Source: a virus
Reading direction: 5' to 3' (one strand)
Length of the DNA stretch: 64,000 nt
IMG/VR virus record: IMGVR_UViG_3300027747_003534
Location: 97,521-161,520 of that record
In this document: one piece after another, positions 3,323 through 64,000 of the stretch
How the letters are laid out: each line of letters starts with the position of its first letter
Numbering within the stretch: the first letter of the stretch is position 1
Program-made: the position numbers and the translations under genes
Notes under the pieces: model-generated
Seen by the model: the letters and a program-made list of their open reading frames with translations, nothing else
Database searches by the model: none
What the model was told of the DNA's origin: nothing

Positions 3323-3350
3323 ATAATACGAACTGACGGGACAGCGTCAA
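3323..3350 (-). promoter_or_regulatory. Sigma70-like promoter for ssb
   Basis: On the minus strand TTGACG and TATTAT are separated by exactly 16 nt. The leader to the ssb ATG is about 50 nt and holds a good AGGAG. The -35 box overlaps the stop codon of the upstream polymerase gene, and TGACG/CGTCA could also form a short hairpin there. Confidence 0.65.
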
Positions 3351-4978
3351 GTACTAGGCAGATAAACTTTTTCTACAATTAGTGAATCTCCGCCCTTTGC
3401 CCTAGACCCTTTTATAATAATAACATTACCACTGAATAATAAATTTCTGTAAGTTTTATATGCTTCAGGAAAAAATATAACTGAGTCTAGCAGTCCGGTT
3501 CCGTCACTAACTGTAACAAAAGCCATTTCTAATCCTGGATTTTTACCTTTTTTAGTTTTTGTTATTCCAATATTCTCTATTTCTGAACATAAAATAATAT
3601 TGTCTTTTAGAATACTATTTTTAAAATCTTTACATGTCGTGTTGGTCATAGTGATATCATACATATCAACTTTAGAACATGTAATATTACATCCCAATAT
3701 CTCGTCCTCAGTATCTGCTATCCATTCTGGATTGTCTTCTAATGAATATGGTGGCTTATTAATAGAGTTTATAAGACTTAGTATAATAGTTTTTCTATTT
3801 TTATTTATTTTGGCATTATGATAAAGGTCGTGCATACTATCAGACAGTGTTTTGTATTTACTAAAATTGGCTATTATATGATCACATTCTCTTTTTGTCA
3901 ATTCTAATACTATGCCAAAATCAAACAGCATAGCAGTTCTGCTTTTGCCCAAAAAAGATAGCGATCCAGATTGTATCAGAGCTTTGCTAGCATTAGAATT
4001 AATATTTATAAGAATATTAAACAAAAACTCTAACCAGCTCATATTATCTATGTAAAGATTACGATCCTTCAAGAGTTTATTCAGTTTATCAAAAATTGAT
4101 TGTCCAAATCCTTTGATGTCTGTTAATCCAAAATAAATCTTTTGATTCCTTAACACAAAGTGTCTATTTAGATGTCTAATGTCTGGTATACATACATTAA
4201 TATCCATTTCATTAGCATTTTGCACTAACTCTTTAATTTCAGCTTTAGGATCTATTTTATCTTTAGCAAATCTTAGATATGATGCAAAAAATACTTTGGG
4301 GAAATGTGCCTTGGCATACGCTGAGAGATAAGCGTTGACGGCGTATGAAACAGCATGACTTTTATTAAAGGAGTATCTTTGGCTTTTTTCGACCCAACCA
4401 AAAATTTCTTCTGCTTGTTCAATTGATACCGTATTAATTTCCTTACAGCCATTTAGAAATTTAAGTTTGATTTTAGCCATCTCTTCTGGTTTTTTCTTTC
4501 CAATAGCTTTTCTTAACATATCTGCTTCTTGAAGATCGAAACCAGCAATAACTTTTGCTATTTCCATAGCTTGTTCTTGATAGATCATTTCTCCATAAGT
4601 AGTATGAAGTATCGGCTCTAATGATGGATGATAATAATCAATACTTTCTTGAGCATTCTTTTTGTCAATGTAGTGGTTACTTACATTTTTTCCTTCCCTA
4701 TAGGCCTCCAAACATCCCGGTCTTAGGATGCTAATTAACCCAGATAGTTGTTCGATATTTTCTGGTTTAAGTTTTTTAGCCATAGATTTACCAAGCCTGG
4801 ACTCTAACTGGAAACAACCCTTAGTGTTACCAGAAGATATTAATTCCCAGGTTTTTGTACAGTCTAAGGGGAGATGTTCAATTTTTGGATCAAAATTTAT
4901 CAAAGTATTATCTATTGTATTGTCTCCGCCGACAATATCGAAAGCACATCCACAAGAATATTGGAATTTTTTAGACAT
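3347..4978 (-). CDS. dnaE: DNA polymerase III alpha, C-terminal half
   Basis: The second half (543 residues) of a replicative C-family polymerase. It begins just before the fingers with PLDCTKTWELI and GCFQLES, and continues through TYGEMIYQEQAM, ADMLRKAIGKKKPE and YSFNKSHAVSYAVNAY, all DnaE signatures. A C-terminal region from about 450 resembles the OB domain (VTVSDGTGLLDSVIFF). The three catalytic aspartates are in the other half, encoded at 5880-7757, so the two products must assemble. Residues 1-35 (with SCGC) have no counterpart I recognise in ordinary DnaE. No intein sequence is present. It overlaps the exonuclease gene by 8 nt. Confidence 0.88.
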   Translation of the reverse strand: MSKKFQYSCGCAFDIVGGDNTIDNTLINFDPKIEHLPLDCTKTWELISSGNTKGCFQLESRLGKSMAKKLKPENIEQLSGLISILRPGCLEAYREGKNVSNHYIDKKNAQESIDYYHPSLEPILHTTYGEMIYQEQAMEIAKVIAGFDLQEADMLRKAIGKKKPEEMAKIKLKFLNGCKEINTVSIEQAEEIFGWVEKSQRYSFNKSHAVSYAVNAYLSAYAKAHFPKVFFASYLRFAKDKIDPKAEIKELVQNANEMDINVCIPDIRHLNRHFVLRNQKIYFGLTDIKGFGQSIFDKLNKLLKDRNLYIDNMSWLEFLFNILININSNASKALIQSGSLSFLGKSRTAMLFDFGIVLELTKRECDHIIANFSKYKTLSDSMHDLYHNAKINKNRKTIILSLINSINKPPYSLEDNPEWIADTEDEILGCNITCSKVDMYDITMTNTTCKDFKNSILKDNIILCSEIENIGITKTKKGKNPGLEMAFVTVSDGTGLLDSVIFFPEAYKTYRNLLFSGNVIIIKGSRAKGGDSLIVEKVYLPST

Positions 4979-5663
4979 TTGTAAAAGAATCTTTGAACTT
5001 AATTTTGTTACTCAAATTACGATGCAGTCTCAAAAATCTGATCAGAATTTCAGCACAGTCTTGCACGTCCTTAAAAGCATCATGTGCCCCAACCTTAGAT
5101 ATTCCAAAATAGTCTCTTAAGGAATCTAAAGTATAGCTCTTAAGATCGCTATTACTTTCAAACCAATAAAATACCAGATTCATCAGATCTATAACATCTC
5201 GTGGATAAAATATATCAGATCTACCTTCTTTATTTGTAAATCCATATTTTATACTGAGTCTGTCTATAATATTCAGATCAAATCTATTAATGTTGTATCC
5301 AGCTGCTATTGGAGCACTAAATTGACTTTTTTTAGATGACCTACTATGATGCATTTCTAAATAATTTGTAAACATTTTCCAAGACTGTTCCTGCGGAGGA
5401 TATTCTTTCCATTGAGATAAAATATCTTCTTTTGAACAACTCCTGACCTTAGCATGAAAATCTAATATGTCTGTAGTATATACATAATTTTCATCTTTAG
5501 CTAAGGTTTCGGGCTTAAAGAAAACATTAAACTCTGATTTGGGAACAATCTCTAATTTTATAGGATCTATTATTAGAGCTGCTATTTGTACAGGACTACA
5601 GATCCTAGGATCGGAACCATCTGTTTCAAAATCAAAAACACAAATTTTATTATAGTTAATCAT
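4971..5663 (-). CDS. DEDDh 3'-5' exonuclease (DnaQ-like)
   Basis: Probable proofreading exonuclease, 230 residues. Exo I is seen in CVFDFETDGSDP near residue 8 (D and E), Exo II in GYNINRFDLNIIDRL, and Exo III in HDAFKDVQDCAEI, with the His-Asp-x5-Asp spacing of the DEDDh family. It sits between the two halves of the polymerase III alpha subunit and overlaps the downstream half, which supports a role in the same complex. The start lacks a clear Shine-Dalgarno sequence. Confidence 0.85.
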   Translation of the reverse strand: MINYNKICVFDFETDGSDPRICSPVQIAALIIDPIKLEIVPKSEFNVFFKPETLAKDENYVYTTDILDFHAKVRSCSKEDILSQWKEYPPQEQSWKMFTNYLEMHHSRSSKKSQFSAPIAAGYNINRFDLNIIDRLSIKYGFTNKEGRSDIFYPRDVIDLMNLVFYWFESNSDLKSYTLDSLRDYFGISKVGAHDAFKDVQDCAEILIRFLRLHRNLSNKIKFKDSFTNV

Positions 5664-5686
5664 TAGTTTTTATATTATAGGGTATC

Positions 5687-5875
5687 TTAAATTAATTCTA
5701 CTTCTACTAGAGGCGTGACCTGAACCTTTTGGGCAGGATCAGAGAGTAACGCTGCGGTCAATACATGACAACAGCTCTTTCTTTCTTCGGGTATTTTTAT
5801 ATATTCACTGACGGGACCACCATTAATCGAAACCTTAAACTTTTGACCAACTGTAAGATCCATAAATTTTACCAT
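5687..5875 (-). CDS. Small hypothetical protein in polymerase operon
   Basis: A 62-residue protein without a recognised family. It begins VKFMDLTVGQKFKV, and has a Cys-Cys pair in the middle. An ATG five codons upstream exists, but the GGAG 9 nt before the second ATG supports the shorter form. The ribosome binding site lies inside the end of the upstream polymerase gene, so translation is probably coupled. Position suggests a replisome accessory role, which is inference only. Confidence 0.6.
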   Translation of the reverse strand: MVKFMDLTVGQKFKVSINGGPVSEYIKIPEERKSCCHVLTAALLSDPAQKVQVTPLVEVELI

Positions 5876-5879
5876 AATA

Positions 5880-7757
5880 TTATTCTCCATTTTTTAAAAT
5901 GTCTTGAATAGTCATAATTTTATCCAACATAGCAATACCTAGAATATCAAACTTGATAACGCCAAGAGCTTCCAAATCTTGCATTTCCATACCTGCTATC
6001 ATTTGATCATTTTTGCTGTCATAAACCATCGGACAAATAGTGTTCAAAGGTTCTGAACTTATTGCAATTCCTGCCGCGTGTTTGGATTGATTGGATTTAG
6101 TGCCTTCTAATCTTATAGCCTGCTCAAACCTTTTTGCAAGTGGGCCTTGTAGTTCATTGTTTTCATCTATATAGCACCACTCTTTGAGTTTTTCTGGCTG
6201 ATTTTCTAATGCCCACCGTATTATTGAGGCCTCTCCTGTTTCGTCCTTCATTTCCTGAAGATCGTCAGCAATTTTAGATTCATCTGGTATATTTTTGGTT
6301 ATTTTGTTCATTTCATCAAAACTAATATTTCCATAAACTCTAAGTACATCTTTTAGAGCACCTCTGCCTTTCATAGTATTAAATGTAATCATTTGAGATA
6401 CTTTGTCATGACCATAGGTTTGTTTAATATATTCTATAATGTTTTCTCTTTTGTCTATAGGAACGTCAACATCAATATCTGGCATGGATATATGGTCTTT
6501 AGAATTTCTTCCGCTATTATAGAATCTTTCAAATAACAAACCATATTTTATTGGATCAATACTGGTAATACCTATCAAGTATGACACTAAACAACCAGAA
6601 GCAGATCCTCTTCCGGGTCCAGGCAGCCAGCCATTTTTCCTTACATAGTTTACAATGTCTTGTACTATTAAAAAATAACTAGATAATCCTGCTCCCTGTA
6701 ATATATCTAGTTCATATTTCACTCTGTCTACATAAATTTGTTGCTCTTCCTTCGGAATAATATTAGCAATTTTAGCTTTCCAACCTTTGCGACATAATTC
6801 TCTCAGATATTCAACATCATCCATTCCTTTGGGACATGGAAAAGGAGGTAGTCTTGGCTTATGTAGGATATTATATTCTTCGCACATATCTGCTACTAAG
6901 TTAGTATTAACTATTTCTTCTTCTGTGTGTAATTGTGCTATTTCTTCTTGTGATAATATATGAAAATTTTCAGATGTAAAAAAGCATCCTAACGCCACAT
7001 CATCGTCATTAGCTATTTTTCTGCTAATATCAGGAAATGTCATTTTTAAATTATTACATAATAATATTCTTTGATCTATTGCATCTTCTTTACGGGAGTA
7101 ATGAGCATCCGGTGTGCATATAATCTTAGTATTGGTAATTTTGGATAATTTTCTGATTGCTTCAGTTAAAACCTCTTGCATAGGAGTATTCTCTTTATCC
7201 ATAAGTTGCGCTTCCAAGAAGAAATTATCTGATCCAAAAATATCTTTGTAAAGAGATATTTCTTGTGTTCCTATATCTATCCAATTTGGTTTGAGGTTAT
7301 AGTTATCAGTTATTTTATCTGCTAATGTTGATCCAAGATGTCCACAAAAGGCTATAATATTATTATTGCAAAATTGAGCTAGATTGTTTAATGCTAGTCT
7401 TGGCTTGTGATAATAAAAATTTGGACGATTTGATTCTGATACTATTCTTATTAAACTTTCCCAACCTTTATAGTTTTTTGCTAAAATTACCAAATGACTT
7501 AATTTTTTATTTTCCGGCTTTTGTATTGATGGATCTAAATCACAAATATATAGCTCACACCCCAATATAGGCTTTATTCCATGTTTTTTCATTTCGGTAT
7601 AAAACTTAACACATCCTGCTATATTACCATGATCCGTGATAGCACATGACGTTGCTCCGATCTCTAAACATCTCTCAGCAATAGTAGACGGTTGAGATAA
7701 TCCATCCAATAAAGAATATGTAGAATGAACATGAAGAGGTATATAATTGACTGCCAT
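5880..7757 (-). CDS. dnaE: DNA polymerase III alpha, N-terminal half with PHP
   Basis: Contains the PHP domain and the catalytic palm of a C-family replicative polymerase (625 residues). The PHP motifs look intact: HVHSTYSLLDGL (about 9-20), ITDHGN (about 40-45), GCELY, and PDAHYSR (about 216-222), so metal-dependent exonuclease activity is possible. Palm motifs follow: GPGRGSASGCLVSYL (about 380) and PDIDVDVP with Asp427 and Asp429; the third aspartate is Asp604 in IKFDILGI. The protein stops about 20 residues later, exactly before the fingers, which are encoded at 3347-4978. It follows the RecB-like nuclease gene after 5 nt. Confidence 0.9.
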   Translation of the reverse strand: MAVNYIPLHVHSTYSLLDGLSQPSTIAERCLEIGATSCAITDHGNIAGCVKFYTEMKKHGIKPILGCELYICDLDPSIQKPENKKLSHLVILAKNYKGWESLIRIVSESNRPNFYYHKPRLALNNLAQFCNNNIIAFCGHLGSTLADKITDNYNLKPNWIDIGTQEISLYKDIFGSDNFFLEAQLMDKENTPMQEVLTEAIRKLSKITNTKIICTPDAHYSRKEDAIDQRILLCNNLKMTFPDISRKIANDDDVALGCFFTSENFHILSQEEIAQLHTEEEIVNTNLVADMCEEYNILHKPRLPPFPCPKGMDDVEYLRELCRKGWKAKIANIIPKEEQQIYVDRVKYELDILQGAGLSSYFLIVQDIVNYVRKNGWLPGPGRGSASGCLVSYLIGITSIDPIKYGLLFERFYNSGRNSKDHISMPDIDVDVPIDKRENIIEYIKQTYGHDKVSQMITFNTMKGRGALKDVLRVYGNISFDEMNKITKNIPDESKIADDLQEMKDETGEASIIRWALENQPEKLKEWCYIDENNELQGPLAKRFEQAIRLEGTKSNQSKHAAGIAISSEPLNTICPMVYDSKNDQMIAGMEMQDLEALGVIKFDILGIAMLDKIMTIQDILKNGE

Positions 7758-57326: not shown

Positions 57327-60008
57327 CTACTTGATCAAACTACTCAACTGAATCTTAAATAGGTCAATGTTATCCTGACTCATCTGTTCGACCCAATCCC
57401 TACTCTGCTTTCCATAGTATGAACGATCTTCAATAATAGGATTCTGACTAGACTTAAGATCTATCAGATTACCAGAGACTTGATGATTGCCCATAATAAG
57501 TTTCAGCATAGGATTCTTGTCTACCTCAGTCTTAATCTTTTCCCTAATCTCAGAGATTTTCCATGTTTTAATATCTTGAGTAGAAGTTCCACGAATAATT
57601 TTCACAAAACCTTCTGCCTTGTCTGTATTCGGCACACAATACAAATGATCAGTAATCATACGTGTCAAAGTATTATAGGCCAAATTAGCATTACGAATCT
57701 CTTTACTGTCAACATCTTCAATCCCAGCCTCTTTCATAAGCTTAGAGATATGAGAAAGATATTCTGTTTGACTGAATCTTGGAATATTAAAAGGACTGAT
57801 ATGAACAGTATGTGCAAAGAACTCTGTTAGCATTGTTTTATTCAAGCAATCAACAAGGGTCTTATTACCAATAAACTTGTCATAATCCAGACCAAAGATA
57901 TTCAGAATATGAAACATAAACTGCTTATCCGTTGTCCCGTGCTGATAATATCTGTATCCACCACCATTCTTCTCTTCTGTTGCATAATCCTTCTTGCAAT
58001 ATTCAACAAGCTTGTTGATAGAACCAAGATTCTTAAAGTGCTTTTGTGTTACAATTTTGAGTTGACGCTTCAAAAAATCATTGAAGTTAACAAGATTATA
58101 ACCATCCTTCTCAAGCTTTTTAATGAAAGCTGTTTTGATAGCATAAATCTTACTATTGCCAACCAAATCCTTGACTATGCTCTTCAGAGTATCTTCTTGG
58201 AGAGTTCTAGTAATGCTACAAATCTCTGGACAACCAGACTCAGACTCAGTTCCATATCTCAGCATGGGAACATAAACAATCTCATCTTGTTCCAGAAAAT
58301 TCTCTAGCTGTTCTTCTGACAGAATTCTCAAATATGTAGCATCATTATAAGGATTTGTAATCTGCTTACTATCCTTGTCATAGCCGTAGATAAAGAATAC
58401 ATCTTGATCGCTGACACTACCATTAGAATTTCTGTTGTAAGACTTTCTTGGGCCAGAACTTTGTGTCAGATGCTTATAGTCTGAAACCTTGAGCAGATTT
58501 TCAGCACCAACATCTTCGATTAGTTGATCAAAACCCTCATTGCTTTTTGTATGATCCTTAGTGTCGATCATCAGATAAGCAAAGCAATCGTTCGCATTAC
58601 AAAACCTTGTAAGAATCTTCTTAGCGCTTTCTTCACTAGCAACATCGCACACAAAGAAACTCATCTTACCCTTCTTCTTCTGGTTATTCCAATAGTAGGA
58701 ACCTTTACCAGTAAGGGTTTCGTGATGGATTCTGTCTGTGAGAGCAACTTGGCGACGAGAACGATAGCCAGCAGTCTTGTAATTAAATACATACAGACTC
58801 TTGCCCGCAGGAATTTTATATTCCAAGTCATTGCCAGAATTGATAGGATGATCCTTACCCTTGGGATCAGTCCAAGTAGCACCAACACCCCAGCCTCCAG
58901 CCAATTCGTTCATAGTATAGTATGAAGTAATTGCCTCTACCTTATTCTGAGCAGATTTAATCTTTTTGGAGAATTCTTCCTTCATCTCCATATAAATTTC
59001 TTGAGTCTTTTTACGCAGAGTCTTGATAACATCCTTGGTATACTGCAAACCTTCACGGGAAACATCCATCTCCAATTCACCGATACCAAAATCAAGTTCC
59101 AAATAAAGACCAGAGTTAATGATCTCGCTCACGAAGCTCTTCCAAGAATCAATGTCTGCTTTTTGGAAAGCTCTATTCCACTTCTGAATATGATCGGGCA
59201 TCTCGTCCTTCTCTTGCCCAACAATCTGTGCGGTCTGAACAGGGTACGCAATATTACCCATGATAGCTACGATACCGCTATCAATTCGATGATAACCATT
59301 AGGGAAATAACTATTATCATTGTTGAGTCGGCAAACCCTCCAACCTTCACCGCTAATGATGATATTGGTGTTGCTATACTTATGATCTTGAAGATTATTT
59401 CCGATACCACCTTCAAGAATGGGTTTCATGCGAAAATAGTGGAAGATTCTCTTAGCCTTGTCGGTAAACTCTTGAAAGTCATGCTGCTTAACAGCGAAAC
59501 TAATCTCAAGACCATTAGGCTCAGACGTATCTGAAGTATTGAAAAGATTCAGAGTAGGAACACCACTCTCATCAATCGCTGCAATATAGGTATACTTCTT
59601 ACCATTATAGTATGATGCAGTAGTGAAACTTTTGGTATAGGCAAACGGACTCTTAGACCCTAGACCAAGGCAACCAACAAAATCATTACTATCATTCTTG
59701 TTGGACGCTCCGTATGTTGTATACAAGTCCTCCATATCGGCCTGACTAAGACCAGTGCCATAATCTCTGACTACAAAAGTAGGATTGGCAGCGGTGGGCA
59801 GAGTAACCTTAAAAGGATTTTTATTCCCGGCAGAGATATGACTATCATAAGCATTAGTAGAAAGTTCACGAATCGCAGCCATAACCTTATCAGAATAAAG
59901 AGAGTCTGAAAGGATTTTAAACATTTTGCTCGTCTGAGCAATATTAAACTGATTCCTGCTTGCAACTCCAACGCTGTGAGTCTCAATCGTCCTATCTGCC
60001 AACTTCAT
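57327..60008 (-). CDS. rIIA: rIIA-like protein (GHKL ATPase)
   Basis: An 893-residue protein with an N-terminal GHKL/Hsp90-type ATPase: ELSTNAYDSHISAG (N-box), VVRDYGTGLSQADM (G1) and GCLGLGSKSPFAYTKSF (G2), as in T4 RIIA. The remaining ~600 residues carry no named motif. With rIIB it affects lysis timing and exclusion by prophages. GGAG precedes the ATG and a TTGACA/TATACT promoter lies just upstream. Both rII genes have C/G-richer codons than flanking genes. Confidence 0.87.
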   Translation of the reverse strand: MKLADRTIETHSVGVASRNQFNIAQTSKMFKILSDSLYSDKVMAAIRELSTNAYDSHISAGNKNPFKVTLPTAANPTFVVRDYGTGLSQADMEDLYTTYGASNKNDSNDFVGCLGLGSKSPFAYTKSFTTASYYNGKKYTYIAAIDESGVPTLNLFNTSDTSEPNGLEISFAVKQHDFQEFTDKAKRIFHYFRMKPILEGGIGNNLQDHKYSNTNIIISGEGWRVCRLNNDNSYFPNGYHRIDSGIVAIMGNIAYPVQTAQIVGQEKDEMPDHIQKWNRAFQKADIDSWKSFVSEIINSGLYLELDFGIGELEMDVSREGLQYTKDVIKTLRKKTQEIYMEMKEEFSKKIKSAQNKVEAITSYYTMNELAGGWGVGATWTDPKGKDHPINSGNDLEYKIPAGKSLYVFNYKTAGYRSRRQVALTDRIHHETLTGKGSYYWNNQKKKGKMSFFVCDVASEESAKKILTRFCNANDCFAYLMIDTKDHTKSNEGFDQLIEDVGAENLLKVSDYKHLTQSSGPRKSYNRNSNGSVSDQDVFFIYGYDKDSKQITNPYNDATYLRILSEEQLENFLEQDEIVYVPMLRYGTESESGCPEICSITRTLQEDTLKSIVKDLVGNSKIYAIKTAFIKKLEKDGYNLVNFNDFLKRQLKIVTQKHFKNLGSINKLVEYCKKDYATEEKNGGGYRYYQHGTTDKQFMFHILNIFGLDYDKFIGNKTLVDCLNKTMLTEFFAHTVHISPFNIPRFSQTEYLSHISKLMKEAGIEDVDSKEIRNANLAYNTLTRMITDHLYCVPNTDKAEGFVKIIRGTSTQDIKTWKISEIREKIKTEVDKNPMLKLIMGNHQVSGNLIDLKSSQNPIIEDRSYYGKQSRDWVEQMSQDNIDLFKIQLSSLIK

Positions 60009-63025: not shown

Positions 63026-63247
63026 TTATGCCCATCCATATTCATCAAAGTGTTCTTTGCAGTTTTTCTTACCATCATAATATCCAGTATCATAACCCTG
63101 TTCATGACCCATAGCATAAGCTGCCATCAACCACTTGATTATATCGTCAGTTTCTCCTTTTGCAACACAATTTCTTATGTCACTTATAGCTCTTTCGTGT
63201 CTAACACTATATCCTTCAATTTCATTTATCCAGTGGTCGAATGTCAT
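63026..63247 (-). CDS. Small hypothetical protein
   Basis: A 73-residue protein, first gene of the minus operon that starts at the 63.3 kb promoter. Contains YAMGHEQGYDTGYYDGKKNC, a Gly/Tyr repeat-like segment. AGGA lies upstream of the ATG. Confidence 0.55.
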   Translation of the reverse strand: MTFDHWINEIEGYSVRHERAISDIRNCVAKGETDDIIKWLMAAYAMGHEQGYDTGYYDGKKNCKEHFDEYGWA

Positions 63248-63284: not shown

Positions 63285-63313
63285 ATTATAGCCTATGCCT
63301 ATTAAGGAGTCAA
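63285..63313 (-). promoter_or_regulatory. Sigma70-like promoter at 63.3 kb
   Basis: TTGACT-N17-TATAAT on the minus strand, about 40 nt before the ATG at 63247. The HNH ribosome binding site lies in the spacer on the opposite strand. A canonical -10 box makes this one of the strongest promoters in the window. Confidence 0.7.
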
Positions 63314-63315
63314 CT

Positions 63316-63771
63316 ATGGAAAGACATAAATATTCAGTCGATGATTTAAAAAATGCTGTTAAAAATTCTCGTTCAATTAGACAAGTATTAGATAAACTTG
63401 GTATTGTTCCAGCGGGAGGTAATTATCAAACAGTTAAAAGAAGAATATCTAAATATAGTATTGATACTTCTCATTTTGGTGGTCAGTCTTGGAATAAAGG
63501 GAAAATTACTGGCCCTAAAAAACCTGTCCATTTTTATCTCACTAAGAATTCTGTTGTTCAGAGTTTTAGACTAAAGAAAAGATTATTATCTGAGAATGTT
63601 TTTGAACACAAGTGTTCTAAATGCAAACAAACCAAATGGTTAAATTACTCTATACCTTTAGAACTCCATCATATTGACGGAGATCATTATAATAACGAGT
63701 TAATTAATCTAATTTTACTTTGTCCAAACTGTCATGCTTTAACTGATAATTATCGTGGGAAAAATAAGTAG
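63316..63771 (+). CDS. HNH homing-type endonuclease
   Basis: A 151-residue protein on the plus strand. The N-terminal half (YSVDDLKNAVKNSRSIRQVL, GGNYQTVKRRISKYSIDTSH) is a DNA-binding module, and the C-terminal half has HKCSKCKQTKWLNYSIPLEL, HHIDGDHYNNELINLILLC and PNCH, a complete HNH/zinc core. AAGGAG with 6 nt spacing sets the ATG; an in-frame ATG seven codons upstream is rejected. Its stop meets the 3' end of the intron-bearing tRNA, which suggests a homing pair. Confidence 0.82.
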   Translation: MERHKYSVDDLKNAVKNSRSIRQVLDKLGIVPAGGNYQTVKRRISKYSIDTSHFGGQSWNKGKITGPKKPVHFYLTKNSVVQSFRLKKRLLSENVFEHKCSKCKQTKWLNYSIPLELHHIDGDHYNNELINLILLCPNCHALTDNYRGKNK

Positions 63772-63807
63772 GAGCAGAGGGGATCGAACCCTCACTGTAT
63801 GGATTTT
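63769..63807 (-). tRNA. tRNA 3' exon (interrupted tRNA)
   Basis: The minus strand reads AAAATCCAT, then ACAGT, then the T-arm GAGGG TTCGATC CCCTC, then TGCTCCT and discriminator A; CCA is not encoded. By analogy with cyanobacterial tRNA-Leu(UAA), the exon begins at position 35, so the anticodon ends in AA. The 5-nt variable loop is short (class I), which does not fit Leu; the 5' exon and first anticodon base are beyond the window. Confidence 0.75.
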
Positions 63808-64000
63808 CGTACTACTATAACTTTCGTTACCATTTCTGTTTGTAGTCTGGACTTTACCTTAACCATAGTTACACAACATTAGGTTCCTGCCGTCAAGTCT
63901 CTACACCTTCATAATATTTCTATTAAGCTTGGCTCGGTATTAGCAGTTAAGCCTTCACCGACTTTGACAAGTTCTACTTTAAAGATTTCTCTTTAAGCAC
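63808..64000 (-). ncRNA. Group I intron (partial at window end)
   Basis: The minus strand carries group I core elements in the order seen in cyanobacterial tRNA-Leu introns: CTTAAAGAGAAATCTTTAAAG (P2-like), ATACCGAGCCAAGC, AAGGTGTAGAGACTTGACGG, AAGGTAAAGTCCAGACTA and AACGAAAGTT, ending in G at 63808 before exon AAAATCC. It has no internal ORF. The 5' splice site probably lies about 10 nt outside the window. Confidence 0.8.

Follow-up and report, generated by a model that had tools for sequence, protein, structure and literature searches.

At the end of a phage record, a group I intron interrupts a tRNA gene, and a gene for an HNH endonuclease runs up against the same tRNA from the other side. 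Are the intron and the endonuclease partners in homing, and where did the intron come from? The window discussed here is a stretch of 64,000 nucleotides, positions 97,521 to 161,520 of the IMG/VR record IMGVR_UViG_3300027747_003534. An initial annotation had described a minimal, cyanobacterial-like intron in a phage tRNA—an arrangement it called unusual—and had raised a cyanobacterial link or horizontal intron transfer.

Collaborative homing is known from cyanophage S-PM2, in which the free-standing endonuclease F-CphI acts together with an intron in psbA (PMC6083498; reviewed in PMC3984707). According to that 2014 review, all bacteriophage group I introns then known were located in protein-coding genes, despite the many tRNA genes that phages carry (PMC3984707). 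In the literature that we searched, which lay largely outside subscription journals, we found no later report of a phage tRNA gene with such an intron; we do not claim priority.

The intron and its fold

The intron occupies 63808..64000 on the minus strand, with its terminal G (the 3' end) at 63808; 193 of approximately 208 nt are present. The conserved blocks quoted in the initial annotation are found on this strand, and an intron in a tRNA gene was read correctly, with limits that are now corrected to 63808 for the end of the intron and 63769 for the end of the tRNA. The right end of the window is the end of the linear 161,520-base record, and approximately 15 nt of the intron's 5' end and the 36-nt 5' exon are missing. 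A second viral contig (L014), identical to the window over all shared bases (231/231 nt), runs past the break: it contains the 5' exon GGGAGCATAGCCCAATTAGGCAGAGGCAATGGACTT, a 208-nt intron, and the same 3' exon. The suggested search for a 5' exon was thus successful in L014 but not in this record: ARAGORN detected no tRNA at its two ends. A circular contig, running on from its end into its start, was considered and rejected, since the sequence begins within protein-coding repeats that contain no tRNA half.

A search of 1 kb with RF00028 (Intron_gpI) matched 63827-64000 on the minus strand as a 5'-truncated hit (37.8 bits, E 7.1e-8), a score below the curated cut-off of 50 bits and hence missed by a default whole-window scan. 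For the full-length intron of L014 the score is 47.0 bits (E 7.4e-11), also below that cut-off. The covariance-model check that had been proposed therefore scores the region in both copies. RF00028 is a general group I model; the intron resembles the introns of bacterial tRNAs and may belong to the IC3 subgroup. No internal ORF was found, in agreement with the earlier description of a minimal intron.

The group I fold is strongly supported by covariation among 34 phage and bacterial introns. In a model comprising P2, P3-P9, and the P3/P7 pseudoknot, 97.1% of cells are paired and 33 of 47 pairs show two-sided change, values reached by none of 500 shuffles; when the partners are slid as a control, pairing falls to 29-43%. 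The P3 helix, which encloses P4-P6, spans 63886..63971 (63971-63966 with 63886-63891), and is paired in 100% of cells with two-sided change in five of six pairs. P4 is formed by 63961-63956 with 63934-63939. P7 (GACTT with AAGTC) forms the pseudoknot with P3 and has P8 between its strands, over an approximate span of 63850..63902; it is paired in 100% of the 34 sequences, and its last pair is A-U, U-A, or C-G. The P9/P9a hairpins (63811..63846) display compensatory change in 9 of 10 pairs. All of these helices are on the minus strand.

Elsewhere in the window, DNA polymerase III alpha is encoded in two ORFs (3347-7757) separated by two small ORFs (4971-5663 and 5687-5890). A second intron in this split DnaE region (4971-5890) was considered and rejected, as no RNA family or intron model matches there. 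An RIIA-like protein is encoded at 57327-60008 (PHROG 612, E 1e-112). A search with the last 25 kb revealed no near-identical relative among named phages.

Identity of the split tRNA

The 3' exon, AAAATCCATACAGTGAGGGTTCGATCCCCTCTGCTCCTA, lies at 63769..63807 on the minus strand, and ARAGORN and a cloverleaf fold identify it as part of a class I tRNA-Leu(UAA) with a short variable loop. When it is joined to the 5' exon of L014, the spliced product folds into a cloverleaf and is called tRNA-Leu(taa) by ARAGORN. Natural intron-minus alleles of the same locus, retrieved solely by a neighbouring protein and thus independently of the intron, carry the uninterrupted tRNA GGACTTAAAATCC (L282, L283, L298, L300, L301, L305, and L306), and the allele in L300 scores 59.1 bits as an RF00005 tRNA. 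The exons of L284, which has a 202-nt intron, are identical to those of the intronless L300, where they are joined as GGACTTAAAATCC. Since GGACTT is followed directly by AAAATCC in the intron-minus alleles, the gene is tRNA-Leu(UAA), broken between U34 and A35; the exon junction of this type proposed in the initial annotation is confirmed. The 5' splice site is read from L014, as the window itself ends before it: the exon's ACUU pairs with the guide GAGU, with a U.G pair at the splice site, and the terminal G is present.

Bacterial tRNA-Leu is normally a class II tRNA with a long variable arm. The variable loop of the window tRNA is 5 nt, not the long arm of class II; L280, L288, and L303, at this locus, combine the same intron with a class II body. 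Class I-sized tRNA-Leu (<=78 nt) is common in these phages, accounting for 14/30 UAA, 12/36 UAG, and 7/17 CAA genes across L001-L148 and L267-L380 (an example is L282:3900-4000).

In its intron mode, ARAGORN calls the L014 gene a tRNA-Phe(GAA) with an intron that ends one base earlier, and a class I body is normal for Phe. This reading would assign to the exon the G that closes the intron; G is the last base of group I introns, and the intron-minus alleles read CTTAAAATCC, which is UAA, making tRNA-Phe scarcely credible. Both the Phe(GAA) and a Tyr(AUA) call by ARAGORN were rejected as products of misplaced splice sites, the group I rule and the intronless alleles giving Leu(UAA).

The adjoining HNH gene

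A free-standing HNH endonuclease of 158 aa is encoded on the plus strand at 63295..63771 (alternative start 63316; PHROG 10822, E 1.3e-46), as a single copy in the record. The two genes are convergent, and the HNH stop codon shares 3 nt with the 3' end of the tRNA. The earlier picture of the locus was right about the intron and overlooked both this gene and the intron-minus alleles. Pfam HNH gives a sub-threshold match only, and a fold search returned weak matches to HNH enzymes (best E 0.02), none of them good enough to single out a close structure; catalytic and zinc residues are intact in comparison with 17-20 relatives, and the C, H, and N residues are invariant.

Relatives of this enzyme keep close company with the intron. 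In loci chosen by the intron motif alone, they are almost always no more than approximately 700 nt distant from the intron, whether encoded within it, on the 5' side of the tRNA, or on its 3' side (either orientation). The converse scan, by protein alone, shows the same: almost all of the best 23 HNH relatives (E <= 2e-20) are either in a tRNA-Leu gene or no more than a few hundred nt from one. Six are inside the intron (L310, L314, L318, L321, L325, and L327), four are beside an intron-bearing tRNA-Leu (L309, L319, L324, and L331), and others are beside an intronless one (L311-L313, L315-L317, L320, L322, L323, L328, and L330); the exceptions adjoin tRNA-Ile (L326) and tRNA-Thr (L329). Named phages with the pattern include Muenster, SP22, Francesca, SE_PL, Cronus, S-CRM01, GodonK, Arash, and cr126_1, among others; exceptions are LCK69, V45v66, Enterococcus 113 (tRNA-Asn), and Dulem 42 (no adjoining tRNA). 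This clustering at tRNA-Leu points to a joint spread of intron and enzyme, which would have one target in common. Because some relatives adjoin other tRNAs or none, and several are nearest to tRNA-Leu(UAG/CAA), the target is perhaps broader or elsewhere in the tRNA.

The HNH-encoding tRNA-Leu introns of the six viral contigs named above measure approximately 680-780 nt. Two Bacilli metagenome bins also have an HNH gene inside a tRNA-Leu(UAA) intron (L251:380-820 and L199:615-1049); these may be phage contigs or a real bacterial transfer.

Signs of movement at one locus

A conserved neighbour gene (MTFDHW...; 63026..63247, minus strand) serves as a synteny anchor, and 34 syntenic viral loci were retrieved with it. 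This one locus has both intron-plus and intron-minus alleles, and extra ORFs of three kinds occupy the same position, namely HNHs of two families and an ORF without a family match. The window's HNH is 95-97% identical to its counterparts in L274, L293, and L297; the following genes are in places only approximately 68-76% alike. Loss is also visible: a deletion scar beside an intron-bearing tRNA-Leu (L288:3940-4000) retains approximately 25 nt of each end of an HNH insert, and another phage (L096) has a decayed HNH. The linkage of intron and HNH is loose, as many intron-plus alleles have no HNH (L280, L284, and L292), and HNH family B adjoins both intron-minus (L275 and L299) and intron-plus (L276) alleles.

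Family B is located 3' of the tRNA-Leu (3534-4004 in L275, L276, and L299), with a 4-nt overlap with the start of the next gene. The third kind of ORF, at L279:3271-4071, takes the HNH's place on the 3' side of a class II tRNA-Leu that contains an intron.

Anticodon stems of intronless carriers

An HNH enzyme that cuts the anticodon arm implies that its carriers need protection, a prediction that we examined in intronless tRNA-Leu(UAA) genes. The canonical arm, [GA]GACTTAAAATC[CT], is found in 1/16 genes within 210 nt of an HNH gene and in 16/19 genes farther away (Fisher 4e-6), for a motif that was defined after the first cases had been seen and for tRNAs of which many are related by descent. 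Collapse at 85% identity leaves 1/15 near vs 13/16 far (4e-5), and a looser motif gives 3/16 near vs 16/19 far (1.5e-4). The first set, on which the motif was fixed, shows 1/9 near vs 15/17 far; in the set fetched later (named and huge phages), taken alone, none of the seven near genes is canonical. Intron-bearing genes keep the canonical junction, in line with what splicing would demand; a count of canonical exons in intron-plus loci was set aside, since the pattern search presupposes such exons.

The altered arms could reflect escape from host tRNA nucleases. Evasion of this kind has been proposed to act through anticodon-loop changes; in contrast, the HNH-adjacent tRNAs retain the loop CTTAAA and have changed, compensated stem pairs.

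Relatives of the intron and the cyanobacterial question

One scan with a P7 motif returned at least 120 viral stretches, mostly tRNA-Leu(UAA), and at least 118 prokaryotic stretches, so the description of such introns as unusual in phage tRNA genes needs qualifying. Among the matches listed, with exon-chosen loci left out and splice sites corrected, approximately 87 viral places parse as split tRNAs, approximately 61 of them as Leu(UAA), and the others include Arg, Lys, Thr, and Met. Introns of the same type are also found in protein genes: in Pelagibacter phage HTVC120P the capsid gene is interrupted by one (L002:1464-1655) and annotated as two CDS, gp29 and gp30, and the protein genes of many other viral loci carry them.

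A cyanobacterial tRNA-Leu(UAA) intron would be an attractive source, given the same tRNA, the same site, and similar conserved blocks. Those blocks, however, also occur in tRNA introns from a range of groups, including Pseudomonadota, Acidobacteriota, and Bacteroidota. A tree of 165 introns, sampled by motif and with moderate deep support (SH-aLRT only), places the window's intron in a 63-row group, of which 60 rows are phage, and sets the cyanobacterial introns apart in a separate, distant, long-branched clade. Nor does the record carry a photosystem gene: nothing in it matches Photo_RC (PF00124). The tree rejects a close cyanobacterial tie and is compatible with a remote common origin; the link drawn in the initial annotation does not stand, and we regard derivation from a cyanobacterial intron as very improbable.

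A proposed homing pair and its alternatives

The intron and the HNH gene are probably a collaborative homing pair, with the intron insertion site in tRNA-Leu as the predicted target of the enzyme. The ORF-less ribozyme, of which we have the fold and the boundaries, would excise itself from tRNA-Leu(UAA) and restore the tRNA. In tRNA-Leu genes, the HNH enzyme would recognize the anticodon arm as long as it is unbroken, and this is where the intron inserts. In a mixed infection the enzyme would cut intronless alleles, and repair templated by the carrier would then transfer the intron along with the HNH gene next to it. By splitting the target, the intron would protect its carrier and leave the tRNA usable, and HNH carriers without an intron may be protected instead by their compensated anticodon-stem changes. 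Cleavage, protection, and co-transfer are steps that we infer from comparisons of sequence.

An unlikely alternative is that the intron is a passive tRNA intron inherited vertically from a bacterial host, and the HNH an unrelated free-standing homing gene of tRNA regions. Bacterial tRNA-Leu genes do have the same insertion site and a similar core, and many intron-plus alleles lack an adjoining HNH. Free-standing endonucleases are also known in phage tRNA regions, such as the homing endonuclease SegB of phages T4 and T6 (PMC13096335); SegB belongs to a tRNA-Tyr region without an intron, whereas the window's HNH adjoins a tRNA-Leu with one. Passive inheritance fits poorly with alleles of one syntenic locus that differ in the intron but share their exons exactly. 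Nor does it fit well with the distribution of the HNH family, which gathers at tRNA-Leu and in several phages and two Bacilli bins is encoded within the intron itself, or with the anticodon-stem contrast. That contrast also bears on a reading in which the HNH homes to its own insertion point beside tRNA-Leu and neither helps the intron nor is helped by it. Such homing would explain why the HNH abuts tRNA-Leu ends in both orientations, intronless genes included; it leaves the altered anticodon stems of intronless carriers unaccounted for, and one fixed junction target is unlikely because the HNH insertion points vary (5' side, 3' side, and inside the intron). We consider this reading improbable, and prefer the collaborative pair.

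Comparison with known systems

Group I introns in anticodon loops are known from bacterial tRNA-Leu(UAA), tRNA-Arg(CCU), and tRNA-Ile/Met(CAU). The window's intron resembles those of bacterial tRNA-Leu(UAA) in its site between U34 and A35, its ORF-less core of approximately 200 nt, its conserved blocks, and its helices; it is unlike bacterial tRNA introns in its phage genome, its largely phage-only tree group, its class I tRNA-Leu body, and its polymorphism at one locus.

As with F-CphI and psbA, an ORF-less group I intron adjoins a free-standing endonuclease gene; the enzyme is proposed to act where the intron inserts, and the carrier's own copy would be shielded from cleavage by the intron. 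Unlike that system, the putative target here is a tRNA gene and not a protein gene, with cutting predicted from sequence, and relatives of the HNH are found in three arrangements (by intronless genes, by intron-bearing genes, and inside the intron). The enzymes also differ in kind; this one is a zinc-type HNH, and F-CphI is of Endo VII type. The HNH half is similar in sequence to the T5 H-N-H endonuclease TflIV (hegA) and similar phage HNH genes, and the copy in Muenster is annotated by similarity to TflIV. The annotations that we saw for TflIV-type genes, unlike the window's HNH, show no intron association.

Significance

Group I introns are common in the phage tRNA-Leu(UAA) genes examined here. 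Three arrangements are found side by side in phages—HNH beside an intronless, stem-altered tRNA, beside an intron-bearing tRNA, and within the intron. They may be coexisting stages of a widespread homing system on tRNA genes, in which one HNH family would act on the phage tRNA-Leu anticodon arm and ORF-less introns would serve as both immunity element and partner; we judge the chances of this broader reading to be even. The locus offers natural pairs of intron-plus and intron-minus alleles together with an endonuclease in three arrangements, and the proposed route from a free-standing endonuclease and an ORF-less intron to a mobile intron is therefore directly testable; a few short DNAs and one protein would be enough.
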